The notes beneath the pieces were generated by a model that was not told the origin of the DNA, made no database searches, and was given only the letters and a program-made list of their open reading frames with translations. Positions 32,373 through 54,580 of a DNA stretch of 64,000 bases are shown here, piece after piece. The stretch is from positions 32,811 to 96,810 of IMG/VR virus record IMGVR_UViG_3300036979_001044; one strand, written 5' to 3'. The DNA is from a virus. The translations under genes and the position numbers were made by a program. Within the stretch, counting starts at the first letter, position 1, and the number at the start of each line of letters is the position of its first letter.

Positions 32373-33200
32373 TCACTCGACCCGTCCCTTTCCGGTCCGG
32401 GTCAGAGTGATGATGCGCCCGAGTTGTTCCGGGGTGGCGTGCGGCAGCCGGGCGCGCAACCACACAAACGCCTCACCTTCTGTCATGGATTTCTTCATGC
32501 GCTTCTTGCGCTTCTTCTTCTCGTCTTCGTCCTCGATGGTATTGGCCTCATCGTGCTCCAAGCTCTGCGGGGCAATCACCCGGCCGGCGCCCATGCCGCT
32601 CTGCGGTCCGGTGATAGGCGCCCCGGGAGTCGCCGTACCCATGCCCAGCATCTTTTCCAGATCCTCGTCGAGCCCAGCCGCTTGCAGGCTCTTGGCCAGG
32701 ATCTCCATCCGCGCCCCGGAATTGACTGGGCAGTTGGTGATAGCCACGTTGCGGACGAGTGCTCGGGCAATGGTTTTCTGGAGCGGGCCGGTGCGCTTCT
32801 CGATCCGTCCCTCAACCGAGAACCCCAACCGCCGTTTGGTCTGGGCGAGCGCGCGTCCCAACTCCCAGACCTTGTCGGCCCCGGGGGTGTTGAGCAGGTA
32901 TCCCTCCACCCAATGCCCAGCCGCCGTGGATACTTCTCCGTTGGGCAGCTGTTCGTTCTTTCGGAAAAACTTGGCCTTCTCGGGGTAACCGAGAATGTCG
33001 GTGGTGTTCTTGGAATGGTTATCGTTGAACCAACCGTTTTGCACGAAATCCGAGAAATCTACCCCGCGGGCGAGAATGACTTCTCCCTGGCGGTCCTTGG
33101 TCTCCAGGGTCGCGATACCGCCGATGCGCCGCTCCTTGCCGGGCTCCGCGTCGGCTTTTTCAAAAAATGACACCGGGACATCGAAATCGAATGCCTGCAT
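32373..33200 (-). CDS. Prohead protease
   Basis: 275 residues from the ATG at 33200 (GAGGAAACC). The N-terminal ~180 residues match the HK97-type prohead protease fold: GGIATLETKDRQGEVILARG, then WFNDNHSKNTTDILGYP with the candidate catalytic His, FSVEGRIEKR, and NVAITNCPVN. The C-terminal ~95 residues form a charged extension with a lysine run and KKSMTEGEAF, reminiscent of protease-scaffold fusions. It should mature scaffold, capsid and possibly the large injected proteins. The gene begins 13 bases after a terminator-like structure. Confidence 0.85.
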   Translation of the reverse strand: MQAFDFDVPVSFFEKADAEPGKERRIGGIATLETKDRQGEVILARGVDFSDFVQNGWFNDNHSKNTTDILGYPEKAKFFRKNEQLPNGEVSTAAGHWVEGYLLNTPGADKVWELGRALAQTKRRLGFSVEGRIEKRTGPLQKTIARALVRNVAITNCPVNSGARMEILAKSLQAAGLDEDLEKMLGMGTATPGAPITGPQSGMGAGRVIAPQSLEHDEANTIEDEDEKKKRKKRMKKSMTEGEAFVWLRARLPHATPEQLGRIITLTRTGKGRVE

Positions 33201-42625: not shown

Positions 42626-45600
42626 TCACTTGTTCTTGTCCGATTTCAGCTTCTCGCTGATCCAGGCAACGATCTTATGCTGATCCACCGCGATGTACTC
42701 ATTGTAGAGGTGCCCGACTCCATCGCTCTCCATGATCTTGCGCAACTTGGCCAAGTTCTCCTCGGGCGTCCCGCCCTTCTTGCACACGGTACGATAGAGG
42801 ATAGCGGCACGATGGGACGTATCGAGCTTTTTGAACGTCGCCTCGAAATGCGCGATGCACTGGTCGTGGGTGTCTTTGTCTGGAATCCAATCACGCATCC
42901 GGAACTTGTAGTAGCGGCAGGAAAGAGAATCGTTTTGCGGCATGTCCTTGATCGGGATGGGCAGCCGCAGCACCTTGGCCTGGGCGTCGGCGATACCGCG
43001 ACCGGTCGGATCGACAATGACCTTGTTCTTCGGGTCGTAGTAGATGCTGTTGCAGGTGAAGTCGCGGCGCTCGAAATCCTTGCGCATCTCGTGGTCCACC
43101 CGAATGTCCGGCCACCACTTGCCGTTGACCGGGTTGGCGCACTGCTCGCCGTCCGCGGTCGTATAGGACACCATGCCTGTCAGGTCAATGCCCGGGCCAC
43201 TCTTGGTGGCACAAACAGTCATCCAGGCCTCGTCTCCAGGGGCCTTGCTAGTGATCCGCCTGTCCCCGGGCAAATCCGCACCAACTTTGTTGAAGCAAGT
43301 TTTCATCACCGTCGCGTCGGCCGTGGTCACCATATCGAAGTCCTTGAGCTTGGAGATCACCTTCTCATCGGTGATCTCACTTCCCTCTTGGACCAGATTG
43401 AGCAGATCGCGCACCGCGCCGCCAACCAGATAGGTCTCGCGGCCTCGTTCCCAGAGCCAATCGACGTACTCGGTTGGGGTGTGCGTACCCACCGCAGCGG
43501 TGGCCATCAACTCGTCCAGAATCTTCTGGTGCCGTTCATTGGGGCGGACGAAAGACTTTTCTGGAAGATCATGCACCGCTGACTTGTAGTGCTCGGGGCC
43601 CGCCTCATTGGACTTGAATCCCTTCCAGTCCTCGAAGTGCAGTTGCGTCGAGTGGTTCTTGTCGTGCGGGCCCTGGTAGTCCGGCCCAAAATCAACGATC
43701 GGATGCCCCGCTTGATCCGTGCCGATATACGTCCCCGGAATCTCCTGGCCCTTTACGATCGCAGTGAGCTTGGCGCCGTTTCTCATGTACCCCTTCAGCA
43801 CCTTCGGAACTTTCAGCTCGCTCTTGGGTACGAGCTGGATCTCGCCCACCCGCTCGACTTTCGATGGAGCAAAAACGGTATCCGCCTTCACCTTCAGCGC
43901 GGGCGCCTGGGCGGGTTTGGGCTTTCCCGGCTTCTCCGCCTTTTCTGGAAAGACCGCCAGCGGATCGGCGTTCTCAATTTTCTGGAATAGATCGCGACTC
44001 ACCGTGATCCGGTTGTAGGTCGGGCCGGGCTCAATGGATGCCTCAATCTGGAAATGCTTCCGCAGCTGCTCGATGACCCCCTTGTGCCCGGGAGCGAACT
44101 TCAGCACCACCAGATCAGGATCGGTGTGGTGCGGGCGCAAATGCCCATCCAGGTACGTCATGAGTCGCGCGGTCCAGCCCGGTTCCTTGGTCTGTCCACC
44201 GTTGCGGAAGTAGATGGGCGTGTTGCCATCCCAGGCGACGATCTTACCTCCGCGGGGCCCAGTCGCGATGATGGCGGCCATCGACTTCTCCAGGTCAGCT
44301 TTGTCCTGGGGGCGGAGCGCTACCTTGGCGGTGTTGCCGATGACGTAGCGCCTACGCTCTTCGGTGCCCTCCCTCGCTGAGTCCTGCCCGGTCACCGCCG
44401 CGTCGGGCAAAACGATCGGGTAGACGTTACGCAGAGGCTCGGTGACCGTGTAGATCTCCTTGTCCCGCTTCAGTCCCTCGGCGACCTCTTCCTCCTCATC
44501 CTTCCAGTCGCGGAGCAAGTCAGCCGGATCGATGTGAGGATTGGGACCTTTTTCTGGAACGCGCCGCTTGGGGGTCTCGACCAGGTAATTGGCCGCGGTG
44601 CCATGGCCGCCCGCGCGATTGCCCGCCTGGCTGGTGGCCGCGCCGATGTCCGCCGATACCTGCCCGCCCTTGCCCAGCCCGGATAGCGGGATGACCAATC
44701 GGAGCTTGGGCGACTCCTCGGCGCTCTGCACCCGGGTGAGCCCCACCCAGCGCTTGAAGGCCTCGATGTCCATGGGGTTGGTCTGGAGGAAGAACTTCTC
44801 CGGCCGGTCGTAGCTCAATCCGTAGGCGCGCTCGGCATCCTCCTGATTGGAGAAGCCCAGCATGCACTTCTGCTCGTCCCAGATGCCGGTCTCGGGATTC
44901 TGCTGCTCGATGACGTAGGCCATCTCGGAGTCGGGGTCAGGGCCGATGAACACGTCGAGAGGATCATCGTCGGCGCCGGTGGTGCCCAAGATCTCCCCGT
45001 AGGCGTGCAGCATCCAAGTCTTGTCGGTGCCCCCGTCCGGGGTGTGAAAGGTCCGCGAGGTGCCCTTTGGGTTCTCGATGTGGATGGGCAATCCCCAGAG
45101 ATGCACCAGCTGCTCGCCACTGGAGAGAGCCTTGCGCAGATCGTCTTCGCGCAGGAGCGCGCGCATGAGCGCCTCCTCGCTCTTGTAGACCTTGCCGCCC
45201 TTGCCCCCGGGCACCAACTCCCCCTCCTTGTTGAAGCCGTAACCGTCTGGAATCCTTAGTAATTGACAAGAACAATGCGGATGGATCGTGCCGATGACCG
45301 CTTGCCACTCGGCGGTCTTCTTGCCCACGTTGGTGCCGTTGGCTACCAGGGTCGAGAGCGGGAAGATGCGCGGGTTGCCGTCCGGGCCGTTGTAGAGCCG
45401 GTCGCAGTGCTTGCAGTTATGCACTGCTAACCCATTGGCAAAATAGCTCTCGTCTTCCTCCACTTCCAGATTGAACACTTCACCTGTGAAAGGAACCACA
45501 GCAATGCTGTTGACTCCTCTGGCATAGAACGATATAGGCTGCGCATGAACCGTAGACGCAATATTCCCAAATCCGAATTGATTCGACTCTGGAAAACCGG

Positions 45601-46954
45601 AAAACATACGATTGGGTCTTTGGGGCGGCACTTTCAAGCCGGCAGTACCACAATCAAACGCCGCTTCCGTGAATGGGATATCCCCATACCCAGCCGAACC
45701 GAAAGCCAGATCGCCAACTTGCGCAGAATGACCCCCGAACAAAGAAAAGCCCTCACCGAGAATGCGCGTAAAGCGCGTAAACTGGCATGCAGCCCAGCTG
45801 CGCAGCATGCCAAAGCTCTGACCAATCAGCGCACCCAGCGCTCGGTTACTCCCACCACCCAAGCCTTGGCCAAAAGACTCGCAGCGTTCCATCCCGTACT
45901 TGAATTCGCTTTCGATAAATTCAACATCGACATTGCTATCCCGCATCTGAAGATAGCGATAGAGGTAGACGGCGGGGGGTGGCATTACACGGGAGCCGTC
46001 CGTAGACGAGATCAAATCAAAGAGCTTCTCCTCTGGGAGCAAGGCTGGATCGTGTTGCGCGTTCCCGACAGTTGCGCAGACCAAGTAATCGCCGCAGTGA
46101 ATCGAATCAGCGCGCCGCCAGTTCATATTAACTAGGAATGGATGATTTTCTGTAGCATAGGGTTTCTGCCCATCAATCCCGATCAGTTTTCCAGAAAAAT
46201 GACGCTGAAAAGCGTGGGTCACCTTCCGCCAGCGCAGCTTATGGGTGAGCACCTCTTCCCCGATACGCACCTGCTCGATGGGAATTTCCCCGCTACGGGT
46301 GTGCACCAACGTGCCCGCGGTAAAACAAGCATCCGGCATTACCCGCTTTGCAACCAGGGCCTCCTCACCGTAGCGCTTGGCGATGTGGTCGGCGAGCCCG
46401 GTCTGCATGGCGGTCTGCTTCTCGGTGACCGCGATGCGATCCCAGTCGCGGGTCCAGTCCTCGCTCGCCCAGCCGAGGTCGCTCTTGAGCTGCTTCGCCG
46501 TCTCGCGCTTGGCGATATTCTGGGCGGTCTTGTCCCGCACAACGCGCTCCAGCTTGGCGCGGAGCTTGGCGTCGGCCTCGATGAGGATGTTGCCGGTCTG
46601 CTGGTTGACCTTGTTGCCCAGGCCCTTCAGGTAGCCAGCGGCGCTGAGCTGGGCGAACTTCACCGCCCGCTGCTCGGGGACCGAGAGCGGGATAGGGTTC
46701 TTGCGAACGTATTTCTGGAAAGCGTCGAAGCTCATGTTGGCCGTGGCCTTGTTCTGGAGAATTCCCAAGAGCTGGCCGTAGAGGTAGGCCTGCTCCACCG
46801 AATTCAAGTGCCCCTCGATGAGCCCAGCCTGCTCCAGCTCCGTCAAAACCCCGGGGTCAACCGCCTCCGGGCCGATGGCCGAGACGATGAAGGCGTTGTG
46901 GTGCTTCTCCACGATCTTCTGGACTTTCTGGAGTTGCTCGGGGGTCAATAGCAT
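42626..46954 (-). CDS. Minor head (MuF-type) protein fused to InPase-like and CCA/polyA-type nucleotidyltransferase domains, with intein
   Basis: 1442 residues including a 304-residue intein (210-513). Residues 1-209 plus ~514-575 form a MuF/SPP1 gp7-like minor head domain (VTEKQTAMQTGLADHIAKRY; CKHCDRLYNGPDGNPRIF; HPHCSCQLLRIPDGYG). Residues ~620-740 match the pyrophosphatase-like domain of phage polyvalent proteins (GADDDPLDVFIGPDPDSEMA). Near 900 lies IATGPRGGKIVAWDG. Residues ~1165-1400 carry class II nucleotidyltransferase motifs: YLVGGAVRDLL, LKDFDMVTTAD, FERRDFTCNSIYYDP. ATG at 46954 with AGAGGTGAGG. Minor head proteins are packaged in few copies, so the attached enzymes may be delivered into the host. 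Activity is inferred. Confidence 0.8.
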   Translation of the reverse strand: MLLTPEQLQKVQKIVEKHHNAFIVSAIGPEAVDPGVLTELEQAGLIEGHLNSVEQAYLYGQLLGILQNKATANMSFDAFQKYVRKNPIPLSVPEQRAVKFAQLSAAGYLKGLGNKVNQQTGNILIEADAKLRAKLERVVRDKTAQNIAKRETAKQLKSDLGWASEDWTRDWDRIAVTEKQTAMQTGLADHIAKRYGEEALVAKRVMPDACFTAGTLVHTRSGEIPIEQVRIGEEVLTHKLRWRKVTHAFQRHFSGKLIGIDGQKPYATENHPFLVNMNWRRADSIHCGDYLVCATVGNAQHDPALLPEEKLFDLISSTDGSRVMPPPAVYLYRYLQMRDSNVDVEFIESEFKYGMERCESFGQGLGGGSNRALGALIGQSFGMLRSWAACQFTRFTRILGEGFSLFGGHSAQVGDLAFGSAGYGDIPFTEAAFDCGTAGLKVPPQRPNRMFSGFPESNQFGFGNIASTVHAQPISFYARGVNSIAVVPFTGEVFNLEVEEDESYFANGLAVHNCKHCDRLYNGPDGNPRIFPLSTLVANGTNVGKKTAEWQAVIGTIHPHCSCQLLRIPDGYGFNKEGELVPGGKGGKVYKSEEALMRALLREDDLRKALSSGEQLVHLWGLPIHIENPKGTSRTFHTPDGGTDKTWMLHAYGEILGTTGADDDPLDVFIGPDPDSEMAYVIEQQNPETGIWDEQKCMLGFSNQEDAERAYGLSYDRPEKFFLQTNPMDIEAFKRWVGLTRVQSAEESPKLRLVIPLSGLGKGGQVSADIGAATSQAGNRAGGHGTAANYLVETPKRRVPEKGPNPHIDPADLLRDWKDEEEEVAEGLKRDKEIYTVTEPLRNVYPIVLPDAAVTGQDSAREGTEERRRYVIGNTAKVALRPQDKADLEKSMAAIIATGPRGGKIVAWDGNTPIYFRNGGQTKEPGWTARLMTYLDGHLRPHHTDPDLVVLKFAPGHKGVIEQLRKHFQIEASIEPGPTYNRITVSRDLFQKIENADPLAVFPEKAEKPGKPKPAQAPALKVKADTVFAPSKVERVGEIQLVPKSELKVPKVLKGYMRNGAKLTAIVKGQEIPGTYIGTDQAGHPIVDFGPDYQGPHDKNHSTQLHFEDWKGFKSNEAGPEHYKSAVHDLPEKSFVRPNERHQKILDELMATAAVGTHTPTEYVDWLWERGRETYLVGGAVRDLLNLVQEGSEITDEKVISKLKDFDMVTTADATVMKTCFNKVGADLPGDRRITSKAPGDEAWMTVCATKSGPGIDLTGMVSYTTADGEQCANPVNGKWWPDIRVDHEMRKDFERRDFTCNSIYYDPKNKVIVDPTGRGIADAQAKVLRLPIPIKDMPQNDSLSCRYYKFRMRDWIPDKDTHDQCIAHFEATFKKLDTSHRAAILYRTVCKKGGTPEENLAKLRKIMESDGVGHLYNEYIAVDQHKIVAWISEKLKSDKNK
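45510..45538 (+). promoter_or_regulatory. Candidate sigma70-type promoter of the nested endonuclease
   Basis: TTGACT (45510-45515), 17-base spacer, TATAGG (45533-45538). Start of transcription would be expected at about 45544-45546, that is at the ATG at 45545, which would give a leaderless mRNA. No good ribosome site precedes that ATG. The promoter lies inside the codons of the intein's Hint C-terminal part. Confidence 0.5.
45545..46135 (+). CDS. Vsr/EDxHD-type homing endonuclease, antisense inside intein
   Basis: 196 residues, ATG at 45545, TAG at 46133-46135; the only plus-strand gene accepted here. Residues ~8-48 look like a helix-turn-helix (SELIRLWKTGKHTIGSLGRH). Residues ~120-180 carry the Vsr-like nuclease core: FNIDIAIPHLKIAIEVDGGG, then WH, RRRDQIKELLLWEQGW, IVLRVPD. 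The whole gene lies within the intein and each codon is the exact complement of an intein codon. None of its 15 Leu codons is TTA/CTA and none of its 9 Ser codons is TCA, which keeps the intein frame open. It lacks the genome's common 8-mer. Presumed to cut intein-free alleles and drive homing. Confidence 0.85.
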   Translation: MNRRRNIPKSELIRLWKTGKHTIGSLGRHFQAGSTTIKRRFREWDIPIPSRTESQIANLRRMTPEQRKALTENARKARKLACSPAAQHAKALTNQRTQRSVTPTTQALAKRLAAFHPVLEFAFDKFNIDIAIPHLKIAIEVDGGGWHYTGAVRRRDQIKELLLWEQGWIVLRVPDSCADQVIAAVNRISAPPVHIN

Positions 46955-47476: not shown

Positions 47477-48791
47477 GATACTGCTCACCCCACTGTGCGG
47501 TATCGATCTGCATCTCGGCAAGGGCTTTGCGCACCCAGAGGGGCAGCTGCTTCCCCTCTCGGCGCGCGGCCGAGACCTCCGCGTAGCACTCGTGGGGGTT
47601 GGTCGCCGCGTAGTCGGAGATCTGGGACATGATCTCGTTCTTGTGCTGCTTCAGCTGGGGTACGCAGTGCTTCTTCCAGATCTCCCAACAGGAGAGCTTC
47701 GATCCCTTCGCAAACAGGTGCCGGAGCACAAACCCCTCGACGTGCCCGCACTCGTGGCGGATGGTCGAGATAAGCCCATGGCCAGTCGTGAAGTGGCTGT
47801 CCCCTTGAGTCGCCTTGGCGTAGCCCTCGTTGAAGTAGTCCGGGCCGACTACCATCACCGATCGCTGGTAAGGCTTCTGGTCGTAGGGATGCGCGACCGC
47901 AATGGCCGATCCCCCAAGCGGGCACTGCTGGGTGAGATCGATCGGATGCTTTCCAGAAAGTGCGATGTGGTTCTCCTCCGGATGCGCCTTGGCCCACTTC
48001 TTCAGCTGCTCGGGCGTGCCCAAGAAGTGCAGATGAGCAACCACCAACGGATGCTGCTCGCTCAGGGCCTTGTTGGCGGCGTTCGCTGTCGCCAGGTCCG
48101 GATAGCGGACTGCCAGGTGCGGCAGATGCTTCGCAGCCCAGCCGTGAGCTTCTTCCAAAGACTCAGCAGCTCCGGTGAAGTGGTCGACAAGCTGATGCTT
48201 GGGCCTAGCGGTACCGGGGACAGATCCCGATACCGGGTCTGGTTCAGCTGGTGCCGGGGGCGCCACTTTGGGCGATGCCACTTCTGGCGTCTGATTTTTC
48301 GCCGCTGCTTTGAATTCATGTCCCGCTCCTGGAGTGAAACTCTTCGGCAGCATGAGCAACAGGTACTTCCCGCCGGGGATGATCGGCGCCTCGATGTGCT
48401 CGCTCTGCTTGAAGGCGGCGAGTGCCGCGGCCTGGGCGTGAGGGATCTTCACCACCACGAGTCCGGGGTTCGACTTGTGCGGCACCACCTTCCCGCCCAA
48501 CTGCGCCGCCCAGCTGTCGAGCGCCCCGCTCAGCCGCTCAGGGCTCCAGTGCTGGGTGTGCTCGGGGTCCGCCCAGAGCCCGCCCTTGGGGCCAACGAAG
48601 GGACCGGACTTCTCCAGCTTCAGCGACTCGTAGGGCGGGGTTTTGTCTTCACGTAGCCGCTGCTCCTCCCAGTACTTCTCGGGGTTCTTCTGGGACTCGT
48701 CGAACCCCTGCCCGAACAGCTCGCGGATTCGCTTTTCGTCTTTGGGGTCGACCTTCAGATCCACCCCGGTCCTGACCGGCTTCTCGCTCAT
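47469..48791 (-). CDS. Virion-type protein with HECGH metallopeptidase-like domain
   Basis: 440 residues; ATG at 48791 in a 4-base overlap (ATGA). Residues ~45-68 hold the shared module SGPFVGPKGGLWADPEH. Residues ~80-140 and ~230-270 are two related small alpha/beta units (PHKSNPGLVVVKIPHAQAAA; PHLAVRYPDLATANAANKAL). Residues ~340-355 contain TIRHECGHVEGF, an HExxH zinc-peptidase motif. The C-terminal part (SDYAATNPHECYAEVSAARR) has further His/Glu that could serve as the third ligand. It may act on virion proteins, host wall or host proteins. Confidence 0.65.
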   Translation of the reverse strand: MSEKPVRTGVDLKVDPKDEKRIRELFGQGFDESQKNPEKYWEEQRLREDKTPPYESLKLEKSGPFVGPKGGLWADPEHTQHWSPERLSGALDSWAAQLGGKVVPHKSNPGLVVVKIPHAQAAALAAFKQSEHIEAPIIPGGKYLLLMLPKSFTPGAGHEFKAAAKNQTPEVASPKVAPPAPAEPDPVSGSVPGTARPKHQLVDHFTGAAESLEEAHGWAAKHLPHLAVRYPDLATANAANKALSEQHPLVVAHLHFLGTPEQLKKWAKAHPEENHIALSGKHPIDLTQQCPLGGSAIAVAHPYDQKPYQRSVMVVGPDYFNEGYAKATQGDSHFTTGHGLISTIRHECGHVEGFVLRHLFAKGSKLSCWEIWKKHCVPQLKQHKNEIMSQISDYAATNPHECYAEVSAARREGKQLPLWVRKALAEMQIDTAQWGEQYHG

Positions 48792-51700
48792 GCTCCACCC
48801 CAAATTCTGGAACCGGCCGTGGCTCCAGACACGATGTGCGGCGGCAGCTCAGCCGCCTTGCTCTGGATGTACTGCATGGCCTGGCCGTAGAGCGCGTCGG
48901 CGTCTACCGAAAGCGCCTCTGGGGGCATCTGGTCCAGGAATTGCACCGGGTCGCCCTTCTTGGCCTTGGCGAAGACGAACGTCGCCTTGTCCTTGTTCTT
49001 GCTATGAAAAGCGGAGAAGTTCTTGGCCCCGTGGGCGTAGCTGTCGGCGAACAGCCGGGCGTCGACCATGCGCCCGATGCTCTTTGCTCGATCCACCGCC
49101 CCGGGCCAAGTGGTCATCGGATCAGCGGACACAAACAGAAAAACTGGTTTGATTCCGCGCTTCTCGCACTCCTCCATCAACCAAGGATTCTCCGTCCCGT
49201 TTTGCTCGCCGGCCGCATCCCAAGTTGCCGCTACGCTCTGGGCCAGCTCGGGGCGCGCACCCAGCGCCGAGCCCTTCCCCCCAGCCACCCCACCGCTGGT
49301 GACCAGGATCTTCCGCTCGCCCTCGGGCATCTTGGCGATCTCGTCCAGCCGTTTCATGAAGGCGCGCTTGACCACCGCGTTAGCCGTCTGGTGGAGCGCG
49401 GTGTTGTACAACGCCCGGGCCTGGGCGCGATCGGGATGGATGGGCTTGCCCTTCTCGTCCGGGGGCAGATCGGGCCGGGTCCACTCAGGCATCATGCTCT
49501 TGGCCGCGTCGGTCTCGAAAATGAAGTTGTTCTTCTTGACCACGTCGTAAAAGGCGGAGGCCATCCCATCGGAGTCCGCCTCGAAGGCATCGGCGAACTT
49601 GCCCTCCACCGCCCGCTCCTCCGCGGTCAGGTTGGGCAACCGGGGAATGGTGGGCGGCGGAGCGACGGTCTTGCCCGGCAGTCCCACCCTAGCCGCGTCG
49701 GCGACCCCATCCCCATCAGCGTCGACCATGGGATCAACCTGGTAGGCCAGCGGGTCTCCGCCCGCCGGCGGGGTGAGCCCGGCCTGCGGGGCCCGGGGAG
49801 CGCTCTGCATCTGGGGCGCGATCTGCGCCGCCGGAGTCGGGGCGCCCATCTGGGGCGGGGGTTGCGGGGTCTGCGCCTGGGGAGTTGGGGCCGGTTGCGC
49901 GCCAGCTCCGCCCCCAGTCCCTTCCTCGGTCCAAGGAATGGTGTGCTCCGGGTCCGCCCACTTGCCGCCCCGGGGCCCGATAAACATCCCGGCCTTGAAC
50001 AGCGAGAGCTGCGCGCTCTCGGATTCGTCCAGTTCCAGAAAATCGTCCAGAGACTTCTGGAACAGCAGATCCTTCACCTTCTGCTTGTCGACCGCGACCA
50101 GGTGGTATTGCCCACCCTCAAAGGTCGGCTCGGCGATTCCATATTTCTGGAGCTGGGCCAGCGCCTCGGTCGCATGCTTGGGGACCTTGACCATCACCTT
50201 GGTCGGGTCTCCGTAATGCTCCTTGATCTTGATACCATGCTCTTGGATGAATCCAGAAAATGCCTGGGCCGGCACAGACCCCTGCTCAGGCGTTAGCTTT
50301 GGTGCCGGCGCCGGCTCAGGCGTAGCAACCGCAGGTTTAGCCTCCGGGGCCTTCTCGGGCGCAGCTGTTGGCTCAGGAACATACGCAGGAGCCGGCGCGG
50401 GCTTCTTCCCCGCAGATACCGCAGTATCCACAGCTTTGGCCCCCATTTGCACATATGCTTCTTCCGATGCCAGGTAGCCCTTCTTCTTTCCGCCCTTCCC
50501 CTCCCAAGCCCAGAAGACATCGCCACCGATTTCAACTTTGGTGAACGACTGCCCGTACCCCAGATGGATTGTTGTTCCCGCTGCAAGCGAATTCAGCTTT
50601 CCAGAATATTCCGCCGTGATCGTGTCAGTATCTTTCTGCGCTTGCTCCAGCGAAGCTGCAATGCCGGCGGGGTCTACAACATAGGGAGTCGCAGACTCCT
50701 TCTTGACCTCCGCAGCTAGCTTGTCAAACATCTCCACGGTCAGCGGCTTGTCCACCCCGGAACTGGGCGAAGGAACTCCCTGCCAGGGCACCTCGACCAC
50801 CGTCGCCGAACCAGGCAAGATCTCGGTGCCAGCCGTTTGCGGCTCGGGCAGGTTGGGGGCTAGCTCGGGGTGATCCATGTCCGACAAAGCTGGGACCTGC
50901 GAAGTCGCAGCGCTCTCCGCGCCACCGCCCGCCGTGGGCCCGGCGACCTTGCCGTGGATCTGGGTGAGCAGTTCATCCACGGATATCGGCTTGCTCATCC
51001 ATTCCATCTCCGCCGCGGTGAGCTGCTTGCCTTGCGTGAGCTTCTGCCCCAGCTCGTACTTGCGCCGCAAAATGTCGTTCACGTTCTCGTCGAAGAGATT
51101 GCCCTCGGCGGTCATCCAGTAGACGTTGACCGCGTTCTTCTGCCCAATGCGATGGGCGCGATCCTCCGCCTGCCTGACATCGGCCGCCGTCCAGGGCATG
51201 TCATTGAAGACAACCTTATCGGCCGCTGTCAGCGTCGCACCAACGGCCATGGATTGACGGGTTGTCACAAAGACACGCTTCTCACCGATGAAGTTGCCAG
51301 CCTCATCCTTTTTCTGGAACTCCTTCTTGGCCGCTTCACGGGCGTCATCCTGCATCTGCCCGTGATGCAGGATAGCCAGGTCGCCGAACTTCTCGGCGAT
51401 AGCCTTGGCCGCCTCGACCGAATCGCTGAATACGATGACCTTGGAATCGGAGGTATCGAGGATTTCCTGCACCATCGACTCGGTGACCGGAACCTTGCCC
51501 TTGGCAATCTCAGCCTTGAGCTTAGAAAACGCCCCAATCGTATTCTGCTCTCCCATGTCGGGTAGACCAGGGACTGGGTGCTTGACGATCGACGTGGTCT
51601 TTTCTGGAAGGTCTTTGAGCACCGCGGTCTTCTGCCGGGCGATGTAGACCTCGTGCATGTCCATCCAGAGCCCGCCGATGGGTGCGGTCTTGATCGCGTT

Positions 51701-54580
51701 CTTGGTGAACTTCCCTGGCGCCACCATTTCCAGCTGGGTGAATAGCTCCTCCTTCTTGTTCTTCACCGCCGTTCCAGAAAGCAGGATGTGGTGCTTCATC
51801 CCCGCGCCTATTTTCTGAACTGTTTGAGTTTGTTGTGCTTTTTGAGATTTAATTCTGTGGCTCTCGTCGATCACGATGGTGTCGAACCCGGCCGCGGCGA
51901 TAGTCGCCTCGAACTTGGCCAGCGACTCGTAGTTGACCGCCGCGATGTTGATTCCAGAAAGGTCGGGAACCTTGCCCTTCTTTAGATCAGCGGCGACCAG
52001 CTCCACCCCATGAAAGTAGTTGGGAAAGAACTTCTCGGCCTCCTCCAGCCAGTTGCGCCGAACGACCTTAGGACAGACAACGAGCACGCGCTTGTCGTTC
52101 TTCGCCGCCCAGGCAAGGGTCTGAATGGTGTTGTGGGTGACCACATGCCCTTGCACAATGAACGTGCTCTGGAGCGACTCGACCGCGATGCAACGCATCT
52201 CCTCCTCGCGCTCGCTCGGGCAGATATCCACGATGGCCCGGGCCAAGCTCGACGCCTCCCAGTGCTCGGCCTTGCGCTCTAACGAGTAGGGGTTGAACGC
52301 CGCGCGGATGTTAACCCGGTAGCTCGGTAGCCCGATGCGAGTCTCGCCGTTATGCTGATAGCGCGGAGCGCGCTTGATCGAGAGCGAAGCGATCGCCCCC
52401 AGCGATCGGGCAAGAAAGATGACATCGTTTGCCAAACGCCTGGACGAGGTGCTGTAAATGCAGCAAGATCCAATCGGAGTATCCCCATCAGTGTCCATGA
52501 GCCCGGCAAGCAACTGCTCACGTTCCTCAATCGAAGCGTAGAGGTATCTTTCTGGAATGAACTTTTCTGGAGAGAGACAACCTTGCAAGCCCAACTCACG
52601 CAAGCTGTCGAGCACCGGATTCTTTCCGTTGATTCCAGAAATTCCCCACGTCGGACAATCGCCCTCCCCAACCTTGCGGGGAACCACAACGCAACCGGCG
52701 GGCAGTAACGCCGCCACCCGCTCAGTGATCTCCATGTCCGGTTTCGTCCAACTCACCGAAGTACCCCCGATTGCCCCATCACCGATGAGCACACCCAACA
52801 CGTAGGGGTCGATCGGCAACTCGCCGCGATACTCAAACTCCTGGGGCAACGCCACCGGTAGATACCAACGGTATTGGCCCTTGCCGTGCCCAGTACGCAT
52901 CCCTTCTTCCAGAAGCTGGGCGGTGGTGCGGACCTTGCCTTCGTTCTCCCGAAAGCGATCCATCGCAGTGTAGACATGCCAGAGGTGCTCGGCGTCGCAC
53001 TCGACTACTTCCCCGTCGCGGGTCTTGACCGCCCAAACCTTGCGCTGGCCCTGGGGATAGACCCCGGATACCCGCACCGCAGCACCGGTCACCGGATCGA
53101 TGACCTCATCGCCCACCTGCAAGTCCCCGAACCGCCTCCAACCCTTTGGGGTCAACGTAAGTGTTTGATTTACTAGCGCTTTACCAAGACCCATTTCGTC
53201 GCCGATGAGCGCGTTGCCGTTGGCCTTGTCCAGAAAACGCACGCACTCGTTCTGGAAGGACATGAGCTTCAGGTCAGGGCCGAGCTTGGCCTGCACCTCG
53301 GGGATGGGCTTTTGCAATTCAGCGATATCCTGATCGCGCTTGATCCGCGCTTCCTTCACCCCGTGGGTCATGATCTGCCACTTGGGGAAGAGCACGGTGA
53401 GCTTGCCTATCGCCTCCTCGGTCAGCTCCAGATCGAAGGTCTCGCGGGCGTGCGTGACCGGGTTGTACTTGGTGATTCCAGAAATCTGCCCACCCTTGTT
53501 CGTGAAGAGGGTGTTGAAGGCTGGCGCGTAAGGCGCGTAGAACTCGAAGATCCCGTCGGGTCGCTGGCGCACCACGATCACGTCGGTGACCTGGTGAGCG
53601 TTGATGCCCTTGATGTACTCCTCGATCTTGTCCCCGGTGAGTGCCTCGCCCGCAGTGGGCCCAGTGGCCTTTGCCGGGGTGCCGAGGGGTTCCAAAACCT
53701 CGATGCCGAACTTGGCCATGTCCTTCTTGTAGGCGGCGAAGTCGAAGCTGGCCAACTTGAGCTTGCTGATCGCGAAAGCCTTCTTGTTGCCGTCGTAGAT
53801 GCCGCCATACTTTTTCTGGACCTCGCAGTACTCCTTGAAGTCGTTCTTGAGGAAACCGTTGAGCGGCAAGTAGAGCGAGCCGAAGGTGTCGTGGTACTGG
53901 GGCTGGATGCTGAAGCCAGAAGTCTTGGGCTTCTCGACCAGGTGCAGCCCGCACTTGAGGTAAGCCTCTGCCCCGAAGTGGGAAGCGATCTGCCCCTTGT
54001 ACTTCTTCAGCATGTTCTTCATTCCAGAAATGTTGCCGCGCACCGAATGCCAGTAGCCGAAGTCGTAGTGGTTAAAGCCGGTGTCGTCGATGACATTGTG
54101 CATCCCGTGCTGCATAGCGTAGAGCGCGTCGCCGATCTCGATGAGCTTGTCCTTCAGCTCGGCCTCGGGGTAGGGGACGATCTGGGGCGCCTCCGGCTCG
54201 GGTGCCTGGCGACTGACCGGTTGATCTCCAGTCCAGTGGATGGTGTGAGCCGAATCAGCCCACTTGCCCCCGTGCGGCCCGATGAAGAGCGCCTTGCCGA
54301 ACGGTTCCCCCTCCTCCTCCGCTGCTCCGATTCCTCCGATGACCACGTCTGCTATCTCCTGGAGCATGAGGTCCAGTTGGTGGGCGTACAGCTCGCGGGT
54401 TCGCGCGGCCAGCTCCTGGAGCACCGGATACTTCAGCTCCTGCTCCTTCTTGGGCAGAGCCTTCTCCAGCATCTCCGCTATTTCTGGAACTTCGCTGGAC
54501 AGCATCTCGCCCAGCCGTTCCAGGAGCTGCCCCGACTTCTCCCGGATTTCCTCCGGGCTTGCCTGAAGCTCCAACCGCAT
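48788..54580 (-). CDS. SNF2-type helicase fused to a zeta-like kinase, with class 3 intein
   Basis: 1930 residues (1580 after splicing). ATG at 54580 with AGAGGAGAGCG. N-terminal helical part, then FIGPHGGKWADSAH (~residue 93). SNF2 core from ~450: P-loop GDEMGLGK interrupted by the intein (468-817), then TIQTLAWAA, DESHRIKS (DEAH box), LLSGTAVKN, and in the second lobe QAEDRAHRIGQ. Several small repeated units and a second FIGPRGGKWADPEH (~1530) follow. Residues ~1650-1925 resemble zeta-toxin kinases (SGGVAGGKGSALGARPEL; MVDARLFADSYAHGAKNF). Helicase of SMARCAL1 look. Probably packaged; remodelling of host or phage DNA and a kinase acting on a small substrate are inferred. Confidence 0.8.
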   Translation of the reverse strand: MRLELQASPEEIREKSGQLLERLGEMLSSEVPEIAEMLEKALPKKEQELKYPVLQELAARTRELYAHQLDLMLQEIADVVIGGIGAAEEEGEPFGKALFIGPHGGKWADSAHTIHWTGDQPVSRQAPEPEAPQIVPYPEAELKDKLIEIGDALYAMQHGMHNVIDDTGFNHYDFGYWHSVRGNISGMKNMLKKYKGQIASHFGAEAYLKCGLHLVEKPKTSGFSIQPQYHDTFGSLYLPLNGFLKNDFKEYCEVQKKYGGIYDGNKKAFAISKLKLASFDFAAYKKDMAKFGIEVLEPLGTPAKATGPTAGEALTGDKIEEYIKGINAHQVTDVIVVRQRPDGIFEFYAPYAPAFNTLFTNKGGQISGITKYNPVTHARETFDLELTEEAIGKLTVLFPKWQIMTHGVKEARIKRDQDIAELQKPIPEVQAKLGPDLKLMSFQNECVRFLDKANGNALIGDEMGLGKALVNQTLTLTPKGWRRFGDLQVGDEVIDPVTGAAVRVSGVYPQGQRKVWAVKTRDGEVVECDAEHLWHVYTAMDRFRENEGKVRTTAQLLEEGMRTGHGKGQYRWYLPVALPQEFEYRGELPIDPYVLGVLIGDGAIGGTSVSWTKPDMEITERVAALLPAGCVVVPRKVGEGDCPTWGISGINGKNPVLDSLRELGLQGCLSPEKFIPERYLYASIEEREQLLAGLMDTDGDTPIGSCCIYSTSSRRLANDVIFLARSLGAIASLSIKRAPRYQHNGETRIGLPSYRVNIRAAFNPYSLERKAEHWEASSLARAIVDICPSEREEEMRCIAVESLQSTFIVQGHVVTHNTIQTLAWAAKNDKRVLVVCPKVVRRNWLEEAEKFFPNYFHGVELVAADLKKGKVPDLSGINIAAVNYESLAKFEATIAAAGFDTIVIDESHRIKSQKAQQTQTVQKIGAGMKHHILLSGTAVKNKKEELFTQLEMVAPGKFTKNAIKTAPIGGLWMDMHEVYIARQKTAVLKDLPEKTTSIVKHPVPGLPDMGEQNTIGAFSKLKAEIAKGKVPVTESMVQEILDTSDSKVIVFSDSVEAAKAIAEKFGDLAILHHGQMQDDAREAAKKEFQKKDEAGNFIGEKRVFVTTRQSMAVGATLTAADKVVFNDMPWTAADVRQAEDRAHRIGQKNAVNVYWMTAEGNLFDENVNDILRRKYELGQKLTQGKQLTAAEMEWMSKPISVDELLTQIHGKVAGPTAGGGAESAATSQVPALSDMDHPELAPNLPEPQTAGTEILPGSATVVEVPWQGVPSPSSGVDKPLTVEMFDKLAAEVKKESATPYVVDPAGIAASLEQAQKDTDTITAEYSGKLNSLAAGTTIHLGYGQSFTKVEIGGDVFWAWEGKGGKKKGYLASEEAYVQMGAKAVDTAVSAGKKPAPAPAYVPEPTAAPEKAPEAKPAVATPEPAPAPKLTPEQGSVPAQAFSGFIQEHGIKIKEHYGDPTKVMVKVPKHATEALAQLQKYGIAEPTFEGGQYHLVAVDKQKVKDLLFQKSLDDFLELDESESAQLSLFKAGMFIGPRGGKWADPEHTIPWTEEGTGGGAGAQPAPTPQAQTPQPPPQMGAPTPAAQIAPQMQSAPRAPQAGLTPPAGGDPLAYQVDPMVDADGDGVADAARVGLPGKTVAPPPTIPRLPNLTAEERAVEGKFADAFEADSDGMASAFYDVVKKNNFIFETDAAKSMMPEWTRPDLPPDEKGKPIHPDRAQARALYNTALHQTANAVVKRAFMKRLDEIAKMPEGERKILVTSGGVAGGKGSALGARPELAQSVAATWDAAGEQNGTENPWLMEECEKRGIKPVFLFVSADPMTTWPGAVDRAKSIGRMVDARLFADSYAHGAKNFSAFHSKNKDKATFVFAKAKKGDPVQFLDQMPPEALSVDADALYGQAMQYIQSKAAELPPHIVSGATAGSRIWGGA
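52130..53179 (-). mobile_element. Class 3-type intein with LAGLIDADG endonuclease in the SNF2 P-loop
   Basis: 350 residues from Ala1 (ALVNQTLTLTPKGW) to Asn350 (GHVVTHN), with Thr+1 of the host protein (TIQTLAWA). There is no Cys or Ser at position 1. It has the WCT set of class 3 inteins: Trp67 in block B (EHLWHV), Cys330 in block F (MRCIAVESL), Thr348 in block G (VVTHN). Two LAGLIDADG-type motifs are present (LGVLIGDGAIGG; LLAGLMDTDGD). The insertion splits GLGK|T of the P-loop. Unlike the other intein it contains three copies of the genome-wide 8-mer. Confidence 0.88.

Follow-up and report, generated by a model that had tools for sequence, protein, structure and literature searches.

Inside the gene for a phage minor head protein lies what is, with a probability of about 85%, a homing element whose two proteins are read from opposite strands of the same DNA: an intein encoded by the minus strand and an endonuclease encoded, codon against codon, by the plus strand. 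The window analysed here is a stretch of 64,000 nt from a virus, taken from IMG/VR record IMGVR_UViG_3300036979_001044 (positions 32,811 to 96,810). That both strands are coding is close to certain; that the pair is engaged in homing is probable. Translation of the minus strand would yield a precursor of the head protein in which the Hint ends, folded about a loose loop, carry out splicing, with the central ~170 residues of the intein carried along as a stop-free, unstructured passenger. A plus-strand message would in turn give a freely folding nuclease with a helix-turn-helix and an EDxHD domain, whose most likely target is the insertion site in head-gene alleles that lack the intein; repair of the cut would then copy intein and nuclease gene together, as the nuclease's family, the empty sites and the co-inheritance of the two parts suggest. 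Division between strands would relieve the nuclease of having to fold inside the intein and could, more speculatively, time its production apart from that of the late head protein; separate expression of the predicted splicing and cutting parts is plausible.

The head gene and its intein

The host gene is a minus-strand open reading frame of 1442 aa (42626..46954). Its assignment to the minor head protein (MuF-like) family comes from a PHROGs match to part of the frame, and the copies in relatives are annotated as MuF-like or head morphogenesis proteins. The portion at 42626-45415 (minus strand) also carries inorganic-pyrophosphatase-like and poly(A)-polymerase/tRNA-nucleotidyltransferase head domains, an unusual fusion. 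The gene is split by an intein of 304 codons (45416..46327, minus strand), which begins with Cys1 after ...RVMPDA and ends in ...AVHN (His303-Asn304) before Cys+1 of the extein (CKHC), its motifs falling in the order C1 FTAGT ... ATENH ... VFNLEV ... AVHN, C+1 KHC. An earlier reading of the sequence alone, here called the original prediction, had proposed complete class 1 Hint ends at this place, and motif residues (C1, T59/H62, H303-N304 and the nucleophilic Cys+1), domain matches and predicted fold all bear it out. The minus frame matches Hint_2, Intein_splicing and intein_Cterm in Pfam and NCBIfam, with Hint_2 and TIGR01443 above their cut-offs and Intein_splicing slightly under its own, and the predicted Hint part matches the gp41-1, DnaB and RecA inteins in Foldseek. 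The Hint N part spans codons 1-89 (46061..46327, minus strand), including block B T59-x-x-H62, and the Hint C part codons 263-304 (45416..45541, minus strand), including block F VFNLEV and the terminal AVHN; both are predicted with pLDDT mostly about 90. The centre between them (codons 90-262; 45542..46060, minus strand) is a stop-free passenger predicted to be unstructured, with pLDDT about 25, and has no domain match in Pfam or NCBIfam in the minus frame. An in-frame homing endonuclease hidden in the centre was thus rejected, neither domain nor fold being present there, as had been foreseen. Elsewhere in the window, a SNF2-type helicase of 1930 aa (48788-54580, minus strand) appears to be interrupted at its Walker A motif (GLGK|A ... 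VTHN|T) by a conventional intein with an in-frame LAGLIDADG endonuclease; position 1 of this intein is Ala, and its antisense register contains stops.

The antisense nuclease gene

On the plus strand, a gene of 196 aa (45545..46135) starts with ATG behind a weak upstream AGG. Counting the stop it has 197 codons, which are complementary one by one to intein codons 65-261; coordinates, register and length had been predicted exactly to the base. That the gene fills the intein centre also stands, with one amendment: Hint N extends to about codon 89, so the C-terminal codons of the nuclease overlap true Hint codons, beyond a linker. A promoter scan around the gene found none. The product comprises a helix-turn-helix (residues about 9-43; 45569..45673, plus strand) and a Vsr/EDxHD-like catalytic domain (residues about 103-189; 45851..46111, plus strand), an identity that had been proposed from the sequence and is upheld by homology and fold. 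The frame matches REase_MTES_1575 and DUF559; a profile of 31 members of the nuclease family finds PDB 3r3p, the catalytic domain of I-Bth0305I, with an E value of 2e-9, and also 3hrl. The AlphaFold model of the window's nuclease has a mean pLDDT of 94, and Foldseek places I-Bth0305I at the top (probability 1.00, E 4.5e-3), with Vsr (1cw0, 1vsr) lower. Residues D129, E140, H147 and D156 are retained, and a Thr stands at a near-invariant Glu position (about 105).

Distribution of the nested layout

Searching relatives for the nested pair, as the original prediction had proposed, proved productive. With the nuclease alone as query, 68 IMG/VR loci were found, and in 63 of them a single open minus-strand frame encodes Hint N and Hint C with the gene antisense between the two; of the remaining five, two are truncated at contig ends, two stand free and one (L071) has no detected Hint. 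Codon register is identical in every nested locus, across a GC range of 34 to 71%. Altogether the same-register pair recurs in 80 loci, 60 of them non-redundant and some at 34-44% GC, and three loci from bacterial genomes are likewise nested. A search from the Hint side added more nested MuF inteins, among them L096 and L097-L100, which share the insertion site of the window. At the DNA level, the window's nuclease gene had no match among named phages; at the protein level (tblastn), the nuclease of Gordonia phage Malisha matches 130 named phage records, a few of them free-standing, and a Hint N query 135, with RefSeq duplicates counted in both figures. The phages matched by the nuclease include those of Salmonella, Gordonia, Pseudomonas, Klebsiella, Vibrio and Haemophilus. 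In the roughly 20 records inspected individually, the head gene is annotated and the intein is named in two (Snoke and KMB36), and an intact antisense nuclease is annotated in none; the vB_StyS-sam record labels a truncated frame as hypothetical.

Some members of the family depart from this pattern. Nested nucleases in five loci (L030, L036, L063, L065 and L069) lack the WH motif of the catalytic domain, and possibly have a different active site or a DNA-binding role; in the L036-L063 pair, both without the motif, the nuclease-strand pattern of substitutions persists. In L170 (from 2501, plus strand), another gene has an intein whose sense strand encodes an EDxHD-like nuclease in frame; the family thus occurs in the conventional layout too.

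Two open frames and selection on each

In this register a stop can arise on the opposite strand only through TTA, CTA or TCA, each of which has synonyms, so any nuclease sequence is compatible with an open intein frame. Across the 60 non-redundant nuclease cores none of the 1482 Leu and Ser codons is TTA, CTA or TCA, with 230 expected from their own exteins, a count that overstates the case and is partly circular because recognition of the loci partly required openness; free-standing relatives and ordinary inteins were therefore taken as controls. Such codons number 7, 3 and 7 in three free-standing relatives. In the set of inteins recovered by the Hint-side search, the 13 that carry an antisense nuclease contain none, against a median of 7 for 43 other long inteins. 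No nuclease-bearing locus was found with its Hint halves in broken frames.

Open frames alone do not reveal which strand is selected where, and this can be read from the register itself, in which the third position of a nuclease codon is the first of an intein codon and vice versa. The share of codons that vary at intein positions 1/2/3 was determined for 11 Guernseyvirinae phages. The N-extein gives.43/.31/.92, Hint N.27/.10/.43 and Hint C.16/.08/.43; the two parts of the intein centre give.51/.07/.24 and.79/.23/.36, and this switch between centre and ends has a Fisher P of 5e-6. About 150 other pairs, summed although mutually non-independent, give.46/.28/.37 for the centre and.19/.15/.43 for Hint C; they include three pairs (L003-L038, L022-L040 and L028-L039) from the larger clade that contains the window. 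Substitutions thus gather at nuclease third positions in the centre and at intein third positions at the ends, so that the centre is maintained as nuclease and the ends as intein; synonymous constraint is present, and follows the strands expected of it. For the window and L096 the corresponding figures are 108/62/97 in the centre and 8/5/24 in Hint C, in weak agreement with this pattern, and two distant relatives at the window's own site weakly suggest that the same selection acts there.

Block F as a start signal for the nuclease

In many members outside the window's clade, block F reads G-H-V-Y-N-L-Q/E and its antisense GGAGGTTRTARACATG or nearly so, which supplies a Shine-Dalgarno sequence and the start codon of the nuclease. 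Among 35 loci that have the block F His, 32 encode the Leu by CTC (antisense GAG), with 10.2 expected (P=2.5e-15); of 16 loci lacking the His, 3 use CTC, with 4.3 expected. The window is of the latter kind, and its nuclease start, with the weak AGG, lies further in. Thus a motif of one protein can double as the start signal of another on the opposite strand.

Insertion sites, empty alleles and probable mobility

In the MuF protein, nearly all nested inteins occupy the conserved HP(N/H)|C site, whereas those of the window, L096 and L097-L100 use a PDA|C site upstream of it; in the window the Cys codon of the HPH|C site (45272..45274, minus strand), where most relatives hold the intein, is empty. 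The intein of the E. coli phage KMB36 sits at TSTT|C, apparently the counterpart of PDA|C. Intein-free alleles, which the original prediction had suggested seeking, are plentiful: most Jersey-like phages have them, and Salmonella phage TUMS_E4 has an uninterrupted HPNCRSN in which the insertion point falls exactly at AAT|TGC. The head-gene region of vB_StyS-sam matches 351 phage records, only 58 of which cover at least 80%, and many of the partial matches consist of two pieces without the intein. For an intein-bearing and an empty allele (L073 and L086), 303 bp of the downstream flank are 99.7% identical and 809 bp of the upstream flank 91.5%, possibly reflecting a one-sided recombination tract.

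Distances between Hint parts and between nucleases are correlated (Mantel r 0.78, reached in 0 of 2000 permutations), so the two travel mostly as a unit. The association is not absolute. In the relatives L005, L007 and L013 the nuclease gene is free-standing: it sits, in antisense orientation, at the 3' end of a MuF or portal-MuF gene that has no intein. The tree groups these three within nested clades, so that nuclease genes seem to move into or out of inteins. Mini-inteins without a nuclease (L108 and L137) are found at the same sites.

A second nuclease family in the same layout

The EDxHD nuclease is not the only occupant of such an intein. In the Gordonia phages Nordenberg and Barsten, and in locus L156, the EDxHD nuclease of the MuF intein is replaced by a LAGLIDADG-like protein, encoded antisense in the same register. 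This assignment is based on matches to I-MsoI (4e-4) and to phage endonucleases (a cyanophage endonuclease at 5e-7) and on the codon test, the Pfam match of the Gordonia protein being sub-threshold. Differences between Nordenberg and Barsten number 45/5/10 in the centre and 7/12/18 in Hint C (intein positions 1/2/3), and near-identical LAGLIDADG-like copies lie on the strand opposite the same head gene in Lennon, Sitar, Thing3 and SchottB. Because two unrelated nucleases share one layout, it arose at least twice, which argues that the arrangement itself is favoured. We lean towards a wider picture in which antisense nesting in register is general and has evolved repeatedly (EDxHD, LAGLIDADG), block F has been tuned as ribosome-binding site and start of the nuclease, and nuclease genes shuttle between nested and free-standing states.

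Alternative explanations

The plus-strand frame could be a chance antisense ORF of a GC-rich, low-stop region, leaving a plain intein with a degenerate centre. Antisense ORFs are indeed common in the GC-rich window, and in L125, a GC-rich intein whose endonuclease is encoded on the sense strand, the centre is likewise open in antisense; yet homology to I-Bth0305I, a model at pLDDT 94, conservation at 34-44% GC and substitutions at nuclease third positions make this scarcely credible, and for the nuclease family it was rejected by codon-position test, homology and fold. Decay of the window's own copy carries more weight: the nuclease may be real but decaying there, its frame a recent relic within an intein that is now immobile. 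Pointing this way are the Thr in place of the near-invariant Glu, a residue that L097 likewise lacks, the weak Shine-Dalgarno sequence and the nuclease-less mini-inteins at the same sites. The frame is nevertheless of full length, although plus-strand nonsense codons are not prevented by the intein frame, and its four retained residues and confident fold also speak against a relic. Decay is thus a possibility to be taken seriously, if the less favoured one; lacking one near-invariant Glu, the window's nuclease may be weak, and whether it is still fully active is an even question.

Two further readings concern the part played by the element. The nuclease might have a role other than homing: it could, for instance, exclude co-infecting phages whose head genes lack the intein, as in intron- or intein-encoded interference, and spread would then be a by-product. 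Free-standing relatives adjoin intein-free MuF genes and persist beside them, so cutting rivals may pay alone; but homing accords with the tight co-inheritance of Hint and nuclease (r 0.78), the precise insertion at a single codon and the patchy occurrence among close relatives, and the two roles are not mutually exclusive. Interference as the primary function is rather unlikely. The original prediction had also seen in the nested pair a possible intermediate on the way to split inteins, and EDxHD nucleases were reportedly found in split-intein loci (fractured genes) by Dassa et al. in 2009. This suggestion found no support in the wider search: no nuclease-bearing locus has Hint N and Hint C in separate frames, the minus-strand frame is continuous in the window and its nested relatives, and the nested form is a widespread state in its own right, so that such an intermediate is very improbable. 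The preferred reading, that predicted splicing and cutting parts come from opposite strands, has strong support from homology, from predicted structures and from tests of selection in relatives.

Comparison with known systems

The original claim that no intein of this layout had been described agrees with the searchable literature, where a search for antisense or opposite-strand nucleases in inteins found no description; a 2025 preprint on actinobacteriophage inteins of 'non-canonical architecture' may describe some. With this arrangement the 'empty' centre of the inteins in capsid genes of common phages, Jerseyvirus among them, is accounted for; if the reading is correct, the split between strands may let the nuclease and the spliced capsid protein be made at different times. 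It is, furthermore, a clean natural case of a long, conserved antisense overlap in codon register, in which a simple rule, the avoidance of TTA, CTA and TCA, keeps the frame open.

Like large inteins of the PI-SceI/TliVMA type, the nested element has Hint ends around a central endonuclease region, sits at a conserved codon of an essential gene and has empty alleles; in those inteins, however, one strand encodes both, the nuclease forming a domain of the intein, whereas here it is a separate protein of the opposite strand and the intein centre is unstructured. Group I introns may also carry homing endonuclease genes antisense to the host transcript; being ribozymes, they have no second protein frame to keep open, unlike the nested intein. 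The window's nuclease shares a homologous catalytic domain with the I-Bth0305I/EDxHD family, whose known members are intron-borne or free-standing. Closest among the systems found in the literature is an insertion in mycobacteriophage methylases, the ShiLan element (PMC11855218), which carries an out-of-frame HNH and has no splicing domains: there, too, a nuclease lies in another frame of an insertion kept stop-free in the host frame, but that nuclease is an HNH on the same strand, whereas here the register is antisense and the insertion a Hint intein. Opposite-strand nesting thus adds a third packaging of the mobile intein, besides in-frame fusion and split loci.
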